Assembly (NCBI RefSeq): GCF_002487355.1
Contig: NZ_NTMG01000067.1
Span: 1-64,000, forward strand
Source of the DNA: Candidatus Methanoperedens sp. BLZ2
Lineage (GTDB): Archaea > Halobacteriota > Methanosarcinia > Methanosarcinales > Methanoperedenaceae
DNA length: 64,000 bases
Reading direction: 5' to 3'
The position numbers and the translations under genes are program-made. This document shows positions 4,314 through 27,482 of the stretch, one piece after another (position 1 is the stretch's first letter; each line of letters starts with the position of its first letter). Below the pieces are notes generated by a model. That model was not told the origin of the DNA, did no database searches, and saw nothing but the letters and a program-made list of their open reading frames with translations.

Positions 4314-4832
4314 TTACCAGCTTTTTCCGAATTTTTCCCGGAAAATAAGTTGATCAAGTTCTTTCCTTTCTGAAAGCCTTTTCTTATCAACAGGATGCCC
4401 CAGGGCGACTACAGCCATTAATTCAAATGAATCCGGAGCTTCAAGGACTTTATTGACATTTTCCTTATTCTCCAGTATCTCGCCGAGCCATACTCCCCCA
4501 AGTCCCATGGAATGAATGGCAAGGAGCATATTCTGGATACATGCGCCTATTGATTGTACATCTTTTACATAATGGTACATGTGGTCTTTATCCAGGAAAA
4601 CAACTATCAAAAGGGGTGCTTTTTTAATAGTAGGGCCATATTTGGTAAGATTTGATAATGCGACCTTTGTTCCGGACTCACGTACTGTAATAAATCGCCA
4701 TGCCTGGTTGTTCAAACCCGACGGTGCCCATCTTCCGGCCTCCAGGATTTGTAATAATTTCTCATCACTCACATTTTCATCATTAAATCCACGAACACTG
4801 CGTCTTGATTTTATTGCTTCTATTGTATCCAT
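4314..4832 (-). CDS. Nitroreductase family protein
   Basis: A 172-residue FMN-dependent oxidoreductase of the nitroreductase fold. The N-terminal TIEAIKSRRSVRGF is the FMN phosphate-binding arginine motif, WAPSGLNNQAWRF follows, and GGVWLGEI with the C-terminal MAVVALGHP segment completes the signature. I chose the ATG at 4832, which follows GGTGAT and gives the normal family start; longer reading to 4928 adds an unrelated sequence that overlaps the upstream gene. Substrate is unknown; F420- or NAD(P)H-linked reduction of quinone-like or nitro compounds is typical of the family. Confidence 0.87.
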   Translation of the reverse strand: MDTIEAIKSRRSVRGFNDENVSDEKLLQILEAGRWAPSGLNNQAWRFITVRESGTKVALSNLTKYGPTIKKAPLLIVVFLDKDHMYHYVKDVQSIGACIQNMLLAIHSMGLGGVWLGEILENKENVNKVLEAPDSFELMAVVALGHPVDKKRLSERKELDQLIFREKFGKSW

Positions 4833-20183: not shown

Positions 20184-20237
20184 TATCAAAAAAAAAATAA
20201 TTATATAAATATATCATGGAATTTTTGGAATAAGCGG

Positions 20238-21296
20238 TTATTTTGCATAATTGACCGTCAAGATTGGAAGATAATGATTCGTTATTCCATTGTCACTTGC
20301 TTTCAATGAGGTGCTTTTGATACCTGTGAGAACTGCCATGATGCGCACTCTGCCAGTAAGAGAGCTGTCCACCTTGGCACCCCATATAACTCGTTTGGTA
20401 TTAGGCACTTTATCCACTATACGCTCGCCCGCAACTGCAACCTCTTCCAGTGTCATGTCTTCACCGCCCGCGATATGGATCAATAAACCATAAGTTTCTG
20501 AAATGTCCGAGATATCAAGCAGGGGAACTTCCATAGCCCAACTGACTGCTCTGGTAATACGGTCTTCACCGTCGCCCTCACCTATACCTATAGCACATAT
20601 CCCTCCTTGCTCCATCACGGTTCTCAGATCGGTGAAGTCGATGTTGACAAGACTTGGCTGAGTAATGGTCTCGGTAATATTCCTGACAAAGTCCCCAACA
20701 AGGGCATTAGCAACTGACAGAGCATCGTTTAGAGGTAGGTCCCCTGCCACCTCACTGAGCTTGATGTTATCGATTACTATGGTAGAATCGCAACTTTCTA
20801 CGATAGCTTTTATCGCCTCCCTTGCCTTTTCCCTCCGCGCCATCTCCAGCTTGAAAGGGATTGTTACACATGCGATGGTTAATATTCCAAGTTCCCTTGC
20901 AACTCCAGCAACTACAGGTATTGCGCCTGAACCTGTGCCTCCTCCCATTCCAGCTACCAGGAATAACAGATTTGCATCATGAAGGGCTGCCTTTATCTCA
21001 GGCAGATTTTCCTTAGTTGCCTCTGCTCCCATCTCAGGGGAGCCCCCGCATCCATACCCTTTGCATAATTTTTTTCCAAGTAAAATAAGCTTATCCGCCT
21101 TTCTTATCGTGGCAAGATGATTTATATCCGTATTAGCTGCTATGATCCTGCCACCTGCCATTCCCTTCTGTGCGATCCAGTTTATAATATTGCAGCCGGC
21201 ACCTCCAAGACCTATTACCGCTATTGAGGGTTTTGCAGCTTTCACTATTTTCCTTAAGTCAACTGTCAAATCTGGTGCCTCTCTGTGAACTTGCAA
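20238..21296 (-). CDS. ftsZ: Cell division protein FtsZ
   Basis: A 352-residue tubulin-fold GTPase. The signature loop is VAGMGGGTGSGAIPVVA, the N-terminal G-box is GLGGAGCNIINW, and the T7 synergy loop is NIDFTDLRTVM. Archaeal FtsZ forms the division ring with SepF. The C-terminal domain ends with a short tail (KASDNGITNHYLPILTVNYA). A 280-base AT-rich intergenic region lies upstream and holds the divergent promoters for this gene and the one at 21579. Confidence 0.93.
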   Translation of the reverse strand: MQVHREAPDLTVDLRKIVKAAKPSIAVIGLGGAGCNIINWIAQKGMAGGRIIAANTDINHLATIRKADKLILLGKKLCKGYGCGGSPEMGAEATKENLPEIKAALHDANLLFLVAGMGGGTGSGAIPVVAGVARELGILTIACVTIPFKLEMARREKAREAIKAIVESCDSTIVIDNIKLSEVAGDLPLNDALSVANALVGDFVRNITETITQPSLVNIDFTDLRTVMEQGGICAIGIGEGDGEDRITRAVSWAMEVPLLDISDISETYGLLIHIAGGEDMTLEEVAVAGERIVDKVPNTKRVIWGAKVDSSLTGRVRIMAVLTGIKSTSLKASDNGITNHYLPILTVNYAK

Positions 21297-21578
21297 TGAG
21301 CAAAAATCGTTGCTACTCCCATATTGTCACCAATTTGTATCATGACGCATCCAGTACTAAAACTTTGTTATGCGATTCTTTTTCATTCTACAGAGGGGAT
21401 TGAAGCAATATTAATACAAAAATATAAGCTCATGAAAATAGAGTGGCAGCACTCCCTGCTTAATTTTTATATTATGACATGAGATATCACATATCTGCTT
21501 TATCGATCAAAACTTATTTAAATCATAATTAATATATGTATAAATGTCTGTTTTTAACAGATAAAATGGGAGGTAGTT

Positions 21579-21800
21579 ATGAAAGAGGAAGAAAAAATTT
21601 TAAGGCCATTTGAATTGGAGAAAAAATGGCATGGATTTCCATGGCCGCTTGACGGGGACCCTGTGGATATCCTGTGGAAAGATGGATTAATCGAAATAGA
21701 GGCTTTCAGGGAACTGGCAAGACTTCAACTCGATGTGCATATCCAGCAATTGAAAGGACGTCTTGAAATTGCCCAGAAAGTGCAGGAAATGTTGAAGTAA
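21579..21800 (+). CDS. Small protein upstream of a radical SAM enzyme
   Basis: A 73-residue soluble protein with an excellent ribosome-binding site (GGGAGGTAG) before the ATG. The N-terminal third is rich in Trp, Pro and Gly (KWHGFPWPLDGDPVDILWKDG), and the rest is a helix (AFRELARLQLDVHIQQLKGRLEIAQKVQEML). No family is recognised. It is followed after 24 bases by the B12-binding radical SAM gene on the same strand. It could be an accessory or substrate protein of that enzyme; nothing in the sequence proves either. Confidence 0.65.
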   Translation: MKEEEKILRPFELEKKWHGFPWPLDGDPVDILWKDGLIEIEAFRELARLQLDVHIQQLKGRLEIAQKVQEMLK

Positions 21801-21824
21801 GTTCACATAAAGTTTACCCGGAAT

Positions 21825-23408
21825 GTGAAAAATAACGCAACAGAAGGCTGTGAGGTTCTACTCATTGGTTATGAGGACGAGGAGAACCTTGGTCTTCGTT
21901 CAATTGCTGCCTACTTGATTGAGAATGGGGTTCGGGCAAAGATTGAACCGTATAATAATTCACAAAAAATCTTAGAACGTATTCTTGTTGAGAAGCCAAG
22001 ACTCGTGGGTTTCTCATTGATATTTCAAAGGATGCTCTTCAATTTTGCAGACCTGATAGCATATCTTCGAAAAAATGGGATCACAGCTCACTTTACAATA
22101 GGCGGGCATTTTCCCACTCTGGAATACAGAATAACTTTAGAGTCAATACCAGGACTCGATACGGTCGTGCGTCATGAAGGTGAATTGACACTTCTGGAAT
22201 TGTTCCATAATATTGACAGCCCGGATCATTGGAACATGATAAAAGGTCTTGCATATCGCAATAATGGGGAAATAGTGGTAACCCCTCCACGCCCCCTGAT
22301 TTTTGACCTTGATTCACTTCCCTTCCCGATACGGAATAAAGAGGTGGTTACTTACAGGGGACTGGGAATTCACTCGTTACTTGCAAGCCGCGGGTGTCAA
22401 TACAACTGTAGTTTTTGTAGTGTTCAACAGTTTTATCGCGGTGCTCCAGGTCGGAAAAGGCGTTCACGCTCACCTTCCAATGTAGTCAGGGAGATGGAAA
22501 AGCTTTACTCCGAAAACGGAACCCGCATCTTTCTCTTCAAAGATGATGACCTGGGTTTAAGAAATACCGGACAAAGGCAATGGGTAGAAGAGTTTATAGG
22601 GGAACTGAAGAGGAAAAATTTGTCCGATAAAATTGCATGGCGGGTCTCATGCAGGGTTGATGAAGTCGATGCCGAAATGATGAACAAATTGAGAGACAAC
22701 GGCCTGGCATTTCTCTATCTGGGAATCGAATCCGGCAGCTCACATGGGCTCAAGACATTTAACAAAGGTTATTCGGTTGACCAGATTCGTCCCGCACTAA
22801 ATATACTTCAAGAACTGGGAATAAAATTCGAATATGGTTTTATGATACTTGATCCCGACAGCACCATAGAGTCTATAAAAGAAAATATTACTTTCCTTGG
22901 CGACCTATCCAGAGACGGGAGGGCAGTAGTCCATTTCACAAAGATGTTCCCTTATATTGGAACCACGATTGCCCACCGATTAAAAACTGAAGGAAGGCTA
23001 AAGGGACCGATAGCCTCGCCTGATTATGATTTCAATGATCGCCGGCTGCATTTATTGGAACATTTCTTTTTTAAATTTGCCTTCGATTTGTATTTGATGG
23101 GGAACGGATTGGCTAACCAACTGGCAATGGCCAAGTTCGATACCGTAATACTTGATAAGTTCTTTTCCGATGAATTTGATACCCGGACTTATTCGATGGC
23201 AGTAAGCGAACTTATTCTCCAGAGCAACGATTCGGTTCTGCGTACGATGAATCGTGCAGTCGATTTTATGGAGAATCGCAGTTATGAAGAAATCATTTCT
23301 GATTGGGATGACCTTGAGACTATTGTGCGTGATAGTAAAATCATAGAACAGAATGTCACTGAAGCTCTGCGGAGATTGACGATCAATAACCGAAAGGTTT
23401 ATACATGA
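21825..23408 (+). CDS. B12-binding domain radical SAM protein
   Basis: A 527-residue protein starting at GTG. The N-terminal 150 residues form a cobalamin-binding-like Rossmann domain (EVLLIGYEDEENLGLRSIAAYL, LVGFSLIF, TIGGHFPTLEYR). The radical SAM cluster is SRGCQYNCSFCSV, cysteines 191, 195 and 198. LGIESGSSHGLKTFNKGYS and the 350-400 segment are typical of the SPASM-free B12-radical SAM group, which performs methylations or rearrangements on unactivated carbon. The substrate is unknown. It has a small-protein gene directly upstream and an unusual protease locus downstream. Confidence 0.88.
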   Translation: MKNNATEGCEVLLIGYEDEENLGLRSIAAYLIENGVRAKIEPYNNSQKILERILVEKPRLVGFSLIFQRMLFNFADLIAYLRKNGITAHFTIGGHFPTLEYRITLESIPGLDTVVRHEGELTLLELFHNIDSPDHWNMIKGLAYRNNGEIVVTPPRPLIFDLDSLPFPIRNKEVVTYRGLGIHSLLASRGCQYNCSFCSVQQFYRGAPGRKRRSRSPSNVVREMEKLYSENGTRIFLFKDDDLGLRNTGQRQWVEEFIGELKRKNLSDKIAWRVSCRVDEVDAEMMNKLRDNGLAFLYLGIESGSSHGLKTFNKGYSVDQIRPALNILQELGIKFEYGFMILDPDSTIESIKENITFLGDLSRDGRAVVHFTKMFPYIGTTIAHRLKTEGRLKGPIASPDYDFNDRRLHLLEHFFFKFAFDLYLMGNGLANQLAMAKFDTVILDKFFSDEFDTRTYSMAVSELILQSNDSVLRTMNRAVDFMENRSYEEIISDWDDLETIVRDSKIIEQNVTEALRRLTINNRKVYT

Positions 23409-23570
23409 TGATGATTTATCATAAAACGGAAATGTGGTTGTGGGATAATTATAAAAATTCAGTAGTTTCCCTTAACTATGAAATTTCCTTTCTAAATAGG
23501 TGGTGCCGATCAGGGAGATTTAGCTAAACTTAATTTAGATATATTTCAGGAATATTTAGGGAGAGGAAAT

Positions 23571-24431
23571 ATGAGGAAAGATAAGTTAGGTGGGACTCAA
23601 TCCAACAAGGAATGCATGGACATAGAAATTCCAAAGCCTCCAGCTGAAGAGCTGTCGGGTAATCGTGCACCACCACGCAAGAAAGCAAAAAAGGCATTAC
23701 AAGCATCATCAGAAAAAAAAATAGCTTTAATAATAAATGACGACAATGATATTGATTTTGGAGATGATCAGAGTGTGCCCACATTTACGTCGGCATTTAA
23801 GTATATGGGGTATGATGTTAAATTGGAGAAAGCAAGTGAAACTGTATATACAACATGGCATAAATATGATATTGTAGTATGGAGCTGCGGGGATGATTAT
23901 TCTGCCGTAAATACCATTAAATACAGACAGATGCTTGTAGAATACGTGGAGATGGGAAGGCATCTTTTACTTGAAAGTGGGAATGTTGCGGCATGGGCAA
24001 AAGAATTTGGAGGAGAGATATTCCCGAACCGCATGTTCCGTAAAAAGGTGTTGCATGTAACAGGAGACTGGGTCTATCATGATGTTGGGGATTTGAAATT
24101 AAAAACAAATCATCCTATTGCCACCACACCAAATGCACTTCCCAAAACTATTGGTTTTACCCCTACAAATCCGGGAGATAACTCAGGAGATGCCAACGCT
24201 GTCAGGATTTTATCTGATGCTACAGGCGTATATAGTTGGTCTTCTGTTTCCTACGAAAATATGCTTTTAAATGATAGTATAGCAGAAAAATCATACGGGC
24301 TTGTAGCATATGAATCCAGGGAAGGAAATGGCGGTCGAATAGTATATTTTGCCTTTGATATAGATGACATTGAAGATGCTGACATACAGCAGAAATTAAT
24401 AGAAAACTCGGTAAATTGGCTTAAATCATAG
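23571..24431 (+). CDS. GATase1-like domain protein, unknown function
   Basis: A 286-residue protein. The N-terminal 50 residues are basic and proline-rich (CMDIEIPKPPAEELSG, PPRKKAKKALQA) with no signal peptide. Then comes a class I glutamine-amidotransferase-like Rossmann fold (IALIINDDNDIDFGDDQSVP, YDIVVWSCGDDYSAV, MGRHLLLESGNVAAWAKE, GGRIVYFAFDIDDI) of the type found fused to secreted peptidases. No nucleophile cysteine is in the expected place. GAGGAAAT before the ATG is a good ribosome-binding site. It is followed by the astacin gene after 12 bases. Confidence 0.6.
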   Translation: MRKDKLGGTQSNKECMDIEIPKPPAEELSGNRAPPRKKAKKALQASSEKKIALIINDDNDIDFGDDQSVPTFTSAFKYMGYDVKLEKASETVYTTWHKYDIVVWSCGDDYSAVNTIKYRQMLVEYVEMGRHLLLESGNVAAWAKEFGGEIFPNRMFRKKVLHVTGDWVYHDVGDLKLKTNHPIATTPNALPKTIGFTPTNPGDNSGDANAVRILSDATGVYSWSSVSYENMLLNDSIAEKSYGLVAYESREGNGGRIVYFAFDIDDIEDADIQQKLIENSVNWLKS

Positions 24432-24443
24432 GAGTGAGAAGAA

Positions 24444-25547
24444 ATGTCAAAAATAAGTAAAGAAGAAAAATCAAAAATAAGCGGAGAAGGAAAGCATCAA
24501 CGGTTATGTTCGATACCTATGGTGCCTGAACGCATCCTGCCAACGGACATCCACCCCACCCGCGCCAGACTAATCCAGATACTGGACAAAAAGTGGGTAA
24601 ATGGAACAGTACTGCCCTATTGTTTCCTCAATGAACCAGCTAAGTTTAAAGGGGCTGAGGAGCAGAAGAAAGTTGTGCGTGACGGGTTCAACGTGTGGAA
24701 GAACGTGGGCATAGGTGTGAAGTTCGAAGAGGTCTCAAATCCTGATGATGCCCGGGTCCTCATAGGCTTCTTGCGGGACGATGGTACCTGGTCCCTCGTA
24801 GGTCGTGACATCCGGAATGAAGATTTTAGGAGAGAGTTAGAAGGGAGGACGATGAACTTCGGGTGGGATTTGATTAGGGAGGATCGCAGGGGGGTCGATA
24901 CTGCGACTCATGAGATAGGTCACACTTTAGGATTTCCACATGAGCACCAGAACCCCAACGCTGGCATAGAATGGAATGAAGATGCAGTTTATGAGTTTAT
25001 GCGCAGGACCCAGATCCCTCCTTGGGATAAGGATACAACTGATCATAATATCATAAACAAGATCCCACCAGATGAGGTGCAAGGATCGAGTTGGGATCCT
25101 AATTCGATCATGCATTATCCCTTCGCAGCCGGCTTAATCAATAAGCCTGCACAATATAAGAACGGCCTTAAACCTGCGGGCGGGCTATCCGAGAGAGATA
25201 TTACCTGGGTTAAGACCTTTTATCCGCCTGACAAACCGGATATTGTGGATCTCACCATCGACACACCCGTTCCACTCTCCCTAAACCCAGGGGAGCAAAA
25301 GGACTTCAGCTTCAGGCCCGGGGAGACACGGATCTATCACATGGCAACAGAGGGGGACTCGGATACTGTGATGGTCCTGTTTGAGGAGAAGAATGGGGAA
25401 AGGACCCAGCTAGCAGCTAACGACGATAGCGCTACGGACATCAATGCCCATATTGAGCAGGAGTTGACCGAGGGAAACAAATATATACTGAGCATCCGGC
25501 TTTATTATGAGTGGGGACGTGGCGATACTAAGGTGAAGGTGTGGTAG
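24444..25547 (+). CDS. Astacin-like (M12A) zinc metalloprotease with PPC-like domain
   Basis: A 367-residue protein. Catalytic zinc motif HEIGHTLGFPHEH (H156, E157, H160, H166) and Met-turn SIMHYP (M223) are those of astacins. A C-terminal segment from about 275 (PVPLSLNPGEQKDFSFRPGE...) resembles a PPC beta-sandwich. No signal peptide is seen, which is unusual for astacins. GC content is visibly higher than that of flanking genes. The TAG at 25545-25547 is directly followed by an open frame in the same phase that runs into the VWA gene, so the two may be one gene broken, or read through, at this codon. Confidence 0.85.
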   Translation: MSKISKEEKSKISGEGKHQRLCSIPMVPERILPTDIHPTRARLIQILDKKWVNGTVLPYCFLNEPAKFKGAEEQKKVVRDGFNVWKNVGIGVKFEEVSNPDDARVLIGFLRDDGTWSLVGRDIRNEDFRRELEGRTMNFGWDLIREDRRGVDTATHEIGHTLGFPHEHQNPNAGIEWNEDAVYEFMRRTQIPPWDKDTTDHNIINKIPPDEVQGSSWDPNSIMHYPFAAGLINKPAQYKNGLKPAGGLSERDITWVKTFYPPDKPDIVDLTIDTPVPLSLNPGEQKDFSFRPGETRIYHMATEGDSDTVMVLFEEKNGERTQLAANDDSATDINAHIEQELTEGNKYILSIRLYYEWGRGDTKVKVW

Positions 25548-27482
25548 ACGATCGGCACATCAGATATTGAAATCGAGAAGGAAGGCCCAAAGTCTGGAAA
25601 AGATAATAAAAGCAGCCTCTGGATCACCGATTCATCAGCGAAGGAAAGAAGGACCTCCCTGGAGTTGCCCGCAGGGTCTTGGACAAGGCTGGAGTTGCAG
25701 CCTGCTACCGATGGAAATCTCCTTCTCCTATGCTGTTATCCAACAGGATCGATAGATACCATATTCAGCATCCCTGTGGAAAAAGGTTACATCTACAGAA
25801 CATGGTATCAATCTGAGGCAGAAGGAAGTTATGAAATCTGGTATATTCTTGATGGATACGAAAGCAACACAGTCACATTTCATGTGATTCAGGGAATAGA
25901 AAAGACCCCATCAAGCCCGATCGGGTCTATTTCGATGCCTGCGGCCCGGTCGTTTGCACCATCCCGAAGTATCGGCTTCTCAGTTGGTGGGGCCAAGGAC
26001 ATCGGCAATTTCAGGGAGAACATAGAGGCTGGCTACCTGCCCCTGCCTACTGATGTGACATTCGAGGGTATAGCTTATGGATATTATTTCCAGACAGCCC
26101 AGGCCGGCGAGTGCAAGAAAATCTTCTGCCCATCCTACAGCTATGCCATATCAAAAGATCCTTTATCCGGGGAACTTCAGCACTACCTTTCTGTTGGCCT
26201 TAACTCTGGCATAACAGATTTTCACAGAAGCAAGTTGAATCTGGTTCTTGTGCTTGACCGCTCAGGTTCTATGAGGACAAACTTTGATCAATATTACTAC
26301 GACCGCTTTGGAAACAAAAGGGAGGCAATGGGAAAGGTCGTAGATGTGACCAAGATGGAGATCGCCAGCCAAACAATAGTGAACCTTATAGAGCATCTGA
26401 AAGATGATGACCGCTTTGGGCTCCTCGTCTTTTCTGATAATGCATTGCTGGTGGAACCCATGATACCTGTGAAAGATAAAAACACAGAAAAGCTCGGTAA
26501 GAGAATCATGGAAATCGGGGCATACGGTGGCACCAATATGGAGGCAGGGATCAGGAAAGGGACTGAGCTCTTCTCCAGGGTTCGGGGGAAGGTTCCTGCA
26601 GGAAATAAGAAATCGGACCAGGAGCAGTACGCGGACAGGATAATCTTTCTAACTGATGCCATGCCCAATACAGGGGAGACAAAAGAAGAAGAGATGCTGA
26701 AAAGCTTCAGGGAGAATGCTGCCAACAGCATATATACAACCTTCATAGGTGTCGGGGTCGATTTCAACACAGAACTGGTAGAAAAAATGACCAGGATCCA
26801 GGGGGCTAATTATTACTCCATCCACTCTGCTGAGGAGTTCAGAAAGCGCATGGATGAGGAATTCGATTACATGGTCACGCCTCTGGTGTTCGATTTGCAG
26901 CTCTATCTGCATGCCTCAGGTTACAAAATCGAGAAGGTTTATGGATCTCCTGAAGCAGATGAAGCCACGGGGGAAATAATGAAGATCAGTACTCTATTCC
27001 CATCGAAGGTCGAGGAGAAAGAAATTAAAGGGGGAGTCGTGCTAATCAAGCTGAAAAAGATATCATCTGAGAGAAGTATGAGGCTAAAGGTTACATATAG
27101 GGACAAGGAGAATGCGCAGCATGTAGATGAAACCGAGGTGGAGACCACAGAAGAGGAATCCGAGTTCTATCAGGGACCTGGCGTTCGAAAGGCCATCCTC
27201 CTCTCAAGGTATGGCGATCTTCTCAAGAATTGGCTCATTGATGAGATAAAGGGGGCGAAGGGAAGAGAGAATGTTCAGCCAACTGTGACCCTGGAAACTG
27301 GCATAGTCGCGCCTGTGAAATTGGGGAAATGGGAACGCCAATCTATTCCCCTGCATGTCACAGATCAATACAAGAATATTTTTGAATTGTTCAGGGCCTA
27401 CTTTGAGAAAGAGATGGAGGCCTTAGGGGATGAAGCCCTGAAACAGGAGCTGGCAGTTCTGGGGAAGCTCGCTGGAGATTAA
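25548..27482 (+). CDS. VWA domain protein, in frame with the astacin gene across a TAG
   Basis: The frame is open from just after the astacin TAG to 27482. The first usual start is TTG at 25665, with a poor ribosome-binding site, and the 39 codons before it contain no ATG, GTG or TTG although they read as ordinary protein. From the TTG the product has 605 residues: a beta-rich segment, a VWA domain with a full MIDAS (DRSGSM near 198-203, GGTNMEAG, FLTDAMPNTGE), then a C-terminal helical domain. No signal peptide. It may have been made as the second half of a 1012-residue protein. Confidence 0.8.
   Translation, partial: TIGTSDIEIEKEGPKSGKDNKSSLWITDSSAKERRTSLELPAGSWTRLELQPATDGNLLLLCCYPTGSIDTIFSIPVEKGYIYRTWYQSEAEGSYEIWYILDGYESNTVTFHVIQGIEKTPSSPIGSISMPAARSFAPSRSIGFSVGGAKDIGNFRENIEAGYLPLPTDVTFEGIAYGYYFQTAQAGECKKIFCPSYSYAISKDPLSGELQHYLSVGLNSGITDFHRSKLNLVLVLDRSGSMRTNFDQYYYDRFGNKREAMGKVVDVTKMEIASQTIVNLIEHLKDDDRFGLLVFSDNALLVEPMIPVKDKNTEKLGKRIMEIGAYGGTNMEAGIRKGTELFSRVRGKVPAGNKKSDQEQYADRIIFLTDAMPNTGETKEEEMLKSFRENAANSIYTTFIGVGVDFNTELVEKMTRIQGANYYSIHSAEEFRKRMDEEFDYMVTPLVFDLQLYLHASGYKIEKVYGSPEADEATGEIMKISTLFPSKVEEKEIKGGVVLIKLKKISSERSMRLKVTYRDKENAQHVDETEVETTEEESEFYQGPGVRKAILLSRYGDLLKNWLIDEIKGAKGRENVQPTVTLETGIVAPVKLGKWERQSIPLHVTDQYKNIFELFRAYFEKEMEALGDEALKQELAVLGKLAGD

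Follow-up and report, generated by a model that had tools for sequence, protein, structure and literature searches.

A candidate peptide precursor and B12-binding radical SAM enzyme adjoining a protease-type module in Candidatus Methanoperedens sp. BLZ2

Do five neighbouring genes of an archaeon form one system for modifying and processing a peptide, or two modules that lie side by side? The question is raised by positions 21,579 to 27,482 of a 64,000-nucleotide window (positions 1 to 64,000 of contig NZ_NTMG01000067.1, forward strand, assembly GCF_002487355.1) from Candidatus Methanoperedens sp. BLZ2, probably a methane-oxidising archaeon. Its genome (G000) comprises 3.74 Mb in 85 contigs, and 30 further genomes of the genus were in the sample. 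An original prediction had placed here five same-strand genes with short gaps, except for about 160 bases before the third, and had left both answers standing. The open reading frames (ORFs) agree with this layout: all five lie on the plus strand, with gaps of 24 nt before the radical S-adenosylmethionine (SAM) gene, 162 nt before the glutamine amidotransferase (GATase)-like gene and 12 nt before the astacin-like gene. We consider it fairly likely, from the genes and their relatives, that the first gene encodes a precursor and the second its dedicated modifying enzyme, and that the remaining three form a separate module attached in this lineage.

As predicted, a Trp/Pro-rich protein of 73 residues (21579–21800) is encoded directly before a B12-binding radical SAM enzyme (21825–23408), the candidate maturase. 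Pfam analysis of the enzyme revealed B12-binding (6.4e-17) and Radical_SAM (9.1e-19) domains, the CxxxCxxC motif is located at 22395–22418, and profile and fold searches of the PDB gave matches to OxsB, TsrM and MgmA. With both domains, this motif and an OxsB/TsrM-like fold, it is a class B radical SAM enzyme. The best NCBIfam model was ApyD (NF050148, 154.6 bits against a cut-off of 750), with only residues 41–366 aligned; the enzyme scored 144.4 bits with the BchE model (cut-off 481), 61.4 bits with rSAM_ocin_1/TIGR03975 (281.85) and 28.1 bits with the TsrM model TIGR04428 (500). Since all of these scores fall far below the cut-offs, the enzyme belongs to none of the NCBIfam families.

The original prediction had called for a search for the small protein beside related radical SAM genes, and it does recur. 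One contig scan revealed relatives of the enzyme in Methanothrix (L008, 55% identity) and in L009 (53%). Among the order's 185 genomes, a whole-genome search at E ≤ 1e-60 found homologues in 9, and in five of these the identity was 56% or more. Other searches detected homologues in 2 of 392 genomes of a phylum sample at 1e-80 and in 1 of 55 genomes in the family of G229, while a six-sequence profile at 1e-100 matched 7 of 237 genomes of the class. Nine loci with 53–95% identity were taken as close (G000, G021, G003, G030, G166, G515/L008, L009, G229 and G544), G515 being identical to L008 over the stretch tested and counted with it as one locus. An intact small protein is encoded directly upstream of the enzyme at seven of these nine, with 73 residues in the window and in G021, 71 in L009, 113 in G003, 111 in G229 and 74 in G544, the last with an enzyme gene interrupted by inserted and masked sequence. 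At G166 a helix remnant precedes a radical SAM gene carrying two stops. G030 has nothing small upstream; the displaced candidate there is a nearby, convergent 126-residue ORF ending in ADPGPVFGRGFE. Small-protein homologues thus occur upstream of enzymes of only 53–70% identity as well, and the adjacency of small gene and modifying-enzyme gene is conserved across genomes, as is characteristic of ribosomally synthesised and post-translationally modified peptides (RiPPs).

Alignment of the small proteins revealed a common C-terminal segment, judged helical from its sequence pattern, and a variable N-terminal part with the motif DP(A/V/G)P-x-(W/Y/F), present once or in tandem. The window protein begins with a W/P-rich candidate core, FPWPLDGDPVDILW, containing DPVDILW at 21657–21677, followed by the C-terminal helix. 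In the form DP(A/G/V)x1-3(W/Y/F), the motif was found in 10 of 11 candidate precursors; when each of the 11 was shuffled within its own residues over 2000 rounds, the mean was 0.18 of 11 and the maximum 2, and other ORFs, counted in their longest form, contained 8 occurrences in 87,653 residues. The strict DPAP/DPVP/DPGP form is present in 8 of the 11 candidates, the window protein not among them. The G003 protein carries three tandem cores (ADPAPGW, ADPAPPW and ADPAPEY), one L008 protein likewise has three copies, and the G544 protein, outside the 11 counted, contains DPVNWLW. In Methanothrix L008, five small-protein genes encoding 83–129 residues stand in tandem; four of the paralogues are 79–88% identical in the C-terminal part and 35–67% in the N-terminal part. 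Read from their sequences, the small proteins combine a constant recognition-type segment with a variable or repeated putative core, as RiPP precursors do, with the conserved part unusually located at the C-terminus. No Cys-rich member was found among the candidate precursors of the pair, and the combination of a SPASM radical SAM enzyme with a Cys-rich precursor, which characterises ranthipeptides and sactipeptides, is not seen in it and occurs only beside the block in G021.

The modification proposed by the original prediction is therefore supported for the small protein and the radical SAM enzyme, because of their recurrent adjacency, the shared helix, the repeated core motif and the paralogue array. 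In the pathway we propose, the small protein would be translated on the ribosome as a precursor, with the C-terminal helix serving as the recognition part, or follower, for binding by the enzyme, and the variable N-terminal part carrying the DP(A/V/G)P-x-aromatic core, once or in tandem. A radical modification dependent on B12 and SAM would then alter aromatic or proline residues of the motif. As a first guess from the ApyD and TsrM precedents, C-methylation would be the likeliest chemistry, or else another B12-radical SAM reaction. At this locus, the astacin-like enzyme might cleave the peptide, which is a guess; the GATase-like, astacin-like and von Willebrand factor A (VWA) genes would have joined the pair in this lineage as a separate module. 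Enzyme, substrate and likely core motif are here predicted jointly, and the variation in repeats and paralogues points to residues of interest. If the proposal is true, it would extend B12-radical SAM peptide chemistry to methane-metabolising archaea.

Several points weigh against a precursor and its maturase. The pair is known here from its genes, from which we infer helix recognition, modification, chemistry, product and function; it is also rare, found in 9 of the order's 185 genomes even when distant homologues are counted. The motif pattern was defined after inspection of the sequences and the G030 candidate was selected by its motif; the window core is a weak, single form (GDPVDILW, without the second Pro), and the fifth L008 paralogue, the one adjoining the enzyme gene, lacks the motif. 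The helix alone does not identify such a precursor, because stand-alone proteins of 72–87 residues with such a C-terminal helix and Met/His-rich N-termini occur in genus g26 (L052–L063) with no radical SAM gene within about 3 kb, the matches being weak (best E 1.3e-5). No recognisable RiPP recognition element (RRE), exporter or dedicated leader peptidase adjoins the pair, and the all-helical C-terminal domain of the enzyme (residues about 400–527), seen in a moderate three-sequence model with a predicted local distance difference test score (pLDDT) of 63, is not RRE-like. RREs are not present in all RiPP classes.

How far these points favour other readings differs from case to case. That the small ORF is a product of chance or an annotation artefact is barely credible: it falls in no database family, and a Pfam and NCBIfam scan of five candidates (from the window, G003, G229, L008 and G030) gave no fitting model and only weak unrelated matches, but the protein is 93% identical in G021 with a ratio of nonsynonymous to synonymous divergence (dN/dS) of 0.15, and homologues precede enzymes of 53–70% identity. 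The small protein could instead assist the enzyme, as a helical accessory subunit or a chaperone, while the enzyme acts on a lipid, a cofactor or another protein. A partner of this sort would also account for the adjacency and the conserved C-terminal helix, and some B12-radical SAM relatives (BchE, HpnJ) act on lipids or small molecules; we nevertheless find this quite unlikely, as an array of five paralogues in which the C-terminal part is constant and the N-terminal part varies, together with motif repeats, is typical of substrates. A variant of the precursor proposal, in which the small protein is a modified cellular protein with housekeeping duties (the binding of a metal or cofactor, or protein contact) and not a secreted natural product, is possible, if short of an even chance. 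No exporter or immunity gene was seen beside the pair, the repeat-containing partners of distant homologues described below are full-sized proteins, and in methane archaea MCR is among the cellular proteins modified by B12-radical SAM enzymes (PMC11796369). Paralogue arrays and varying repeat number look more like peptide products. Both versions share the same enzymology.

A system of all five genes, in which the radical SAM enzyme modifies, the astacin-like protein cleaves and the GATase-like and VWA proteins play supporting parts, requires the two modules to belong together. Homology between the window and G021 extends from 21488 to 27470 and thus covers the whole block, ending on both sides against unrelated flanks. 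G020 shares synteny with the window to either side but lacks 20192–23388, a stretch holding an FtsZ-family gene, the 73-residue protein gene and the radical SAM gene; it retains about 20 bases of the 3' end of the latter together with the intergenic stretch, so the adjacency to the GATase-like gene predates that split. Probably the pair stood before the protease module in their common ancestor; G021 carries the whole block at a different site, and G020 lost the pair. In G003, a tyrosinase-PPC protein and an Emfourin-family metalloprotease inhibitor are encoded just upstream of the precursor. Against a single system, a tblastn search with the five proteins in the available DNA of the remaining seven close loci (L008, L009, L025, L027, L032, L026 and L104), several of them on short contigs, found no gene of the second module, and the GATase-like loci checked outside the lineage (G012 and G058) show no radical SAM gene. 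Synonymous divergence (dS) from G021 also varies widely along the block (GATase-like 0.085, radical SAM 0.19, astacin-like 0.515), so its parts have different histories; because of this inequality, recombination of the block is suggested.

We therefore hold a single five-gene system to be unlikely. Only the window and G021 have the two modules together, and two adjacent modules, the second alternative of the original prediction, fit best, with seven of nine close loci free of the second. The prediction had staked its case on the pair and the protease set occurring together somewhere, and they do, in the whole block of G021 and the radical SAM tail of G020. The two modules are truly linked in one lineage, though not in general. 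GC content is higher in the astacin-like and VWA genes (0.489 and 0.471), as had been noticed, than in the radical SAM gene (0.426) and the GATase-like gene (0.390), with 0.390 for the window; GC3 is 0.546, 0.533, 0.422 and 0.317, respectively. The block genes are constrained, since dN/dS against G021 ranges from 0.12 to 0.51 (radical SAM 0.12, GATase-like 0.51, astacin-like 0.21).

The three genes of the second module share one reading frame, and we read them together, from their sequences, as a putative protease-type module. The first (23571–24431) is present as predicted, but its family label finds no support here, as the 286-residue protein has no Pfam match. It has a conserved KPP-containing N-terminus. 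Matches were found in 12 of the 185 genomes of the order, two of which also have a close radical SAM gene. In G020 it is fused to the astacin-like protein in one 651-residue ORF. In G012 and G058 it precedes another domain, which we would regard as C25/caspase-like from HG and (E)AC-G motifs, Pfam giving no support; in f3 genomes it lies inside large ORFs, and the one at L038 is a subtilase (PF00082, 3.8e-61). A PDB search with a profile of five relatives gave no match at E ≤ 1, and the single-sequence fold prediction was unusable (pLDDT 35.7).

The astacin-like protein (24444–25547), which matches Pfam Astacin (7.4e-8) and Matrixin (1.5e-8) above the cut-off, carries the HExxHxxGxxHE zinc motif at 24909–24944 and a Met-turn, SxMHY, at 25104–25118, the motifs of astacins (M12A). 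No signal peptide is recognisable by eye, in line with the original prediction. Its best curated model is NF050131 AbsR1, which aligns over the whole length (1.3e-100) at 336.9 bits, below the 650-bit cut-off; matches occur in 4 of the 185 genomes. For SCO6992/AbsR1, PMC9705864 reports beta-glucuronidase activity and no protease activity. Because this nearest curated relative is reported inactive as a protease, it is unsafe to assume protease activity for the window protein, for which astacin is a loose label. The VWA frame (25548–27482; Pfam VWA_2, 3.7e-12) has the predicted complete metal ion-dependent adhesion site (MIDAS), with DxSxS, T and D at 26256, 26526 and 26649, and its VWA region resembles inter-alpha-trypsin-inhibitor heavy chains. 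Among 60 genomes, full-length VWA proteins were found in G000, G020 and G021, with three further weak matches.

This frame opens right behind the in-frame TAG that ends the astacin-like gene (25545–25547), and no ATG, GTG or TTG precedes TTG 25665. G021 shares both the TAG and the peptide encoded after it. The corresponding interval of G020 has about 109 extra bases, with further stops and an ATG, as in a normal start region, by which we rejected a natural astacin-VWA fusion. Pyrrolysine readthrough of the TAG was rejected: no PylS above the cut-off was found in the sampled genus genomes, the best score in G000 being 31.2 bits against 178.15, and the 6 of 60 genomes with PylS above the cut-off all belong to family f5. 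Given the longer G020 gap with its stops and ATG, and the missing PylS, it is more likely that G000 and G021 lost the VWA start by deletion. The VWA frame nevertheless remains under constraint (dN/dS 0.34 against G021).

The pair shares features with several known systems. The closest NCBIfam model, ApyD, is likewise a B12-binding radical SAM enzyme adjoining a small precursor; according to PMC10635010 it is a RiPP enzyme that beta-methylates Tyr in ApyA and has an RRE, whereas none was seen in the window enzyme. Nor was an MNIO, P450 or methyltransferase partner seen at the window pair, and the precursors are unrelated by eye. TsrM, a class B Trp C2-methyltransferase that acts on free Trp, ranks fourth among the fold matches and recalls the aromatic residue of the motif, but its model scores far too low. 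OxsB, a small-molecule ring-contracting enzyme, is the best PDB match by both profile and fold. The rSAM_ocin_1 RiPP C-methyltransferases likewise combine a B12-radical SAM enzyme with precursors, but the window enzyme lies below their cut-off. A repeated short core motif beside a radical SAM gene is also a feature of the poly-cyclopropylglycine system TvgA/TvgB, where, according to PMC9062424, TvgB is SPASM-type and the motif is TVGG. A literature search, with most subscription journals outside its coverage, found no paper on this small-protein/radical SAM pair and so supports novelty weakly. The pair, which recurs in distant archaea, seems to represent a type of modified peptide not yet described; according to a survey of archaeal RiPPs, few of their products are known (PMC12144867).

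Distant homologues of the enzyme (32–38% identity) adjoin other partners. EPAH-repeat proteins, all full-sized, are found at L022:2063-3091, L029:2348-3091 and L030:9297-9989, with 8, 4 and 2 EPA[HQ] motifs; of the 15 EPA(H/Q) motifs present across 364 background ORFs, 14 belong to these three. The L028 homologue has a small, leader-like ORF beside it, along with two further radical SAM-type genes. A new class of ribosomal peptide modification in methane-metabolising archaea, with a clade of B12-radical SAM enzymes that would act again and again along the chain on acidic-Pro-Ala motifs, in DPAPxW precursors with a C-terminal recognition helix and in the EPAH partners of distant members, is a tentative and somewhat doubtful idea. 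Near the L030 enzyme, two similar 69-residue proteins (L030:10060-10576), one with IWAPPDLDP, lie between further radical-SAM-like genes. As a genome-wide DNA pattern, DPAPxW matched in 38 of the 185 genomes; of 30 loci examined, the sole precursor-like match was the known G003 one, and the others look like chance or MtrA. A 240-residue protein read as MtrA at L086, L087 and L088 starts MVDKRDPAPGW, a sharing of the motif that is probably coincidence. MtrA binds a corrinoid. Beyond chromosomes, none of 50 viral stretches with an alignment to the enzyme was confirmed, and 18 plasmid records matched it, all at less than 60% identity and none covering 80% of the query.

Some neighbouring genes deserve mention. 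In L009, binned as Bacteroidota, we interpret ORF 4559-4795 as encoding an archaeal histone, so that the contig is probably archaeal and mis-binned. The G003 genes directly upstream of the three-repeat precursor lie at L025:7780-9664, and a tyrosinase with PPC domains is odd for a probably anaerobic archaeon. The convergent neighbours at G030 also include a PqqD-like protein (PF05402, 4e-5), a domain seen only there among the pair loci, and a second B12-radical SAM enzyme. In G021, a 72-residue Cys-rich peptide followed by a PapB-family SPASM radical SAM enzyme (NF047865, 220.6 bits, cut-off 340) is encoded divergently from the shared block (L011:12876-14330) and appears ranthipeptide-like. 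In the window, the FtsZ-family gene inside the stretch absent from G020 lies at 20238–21296.

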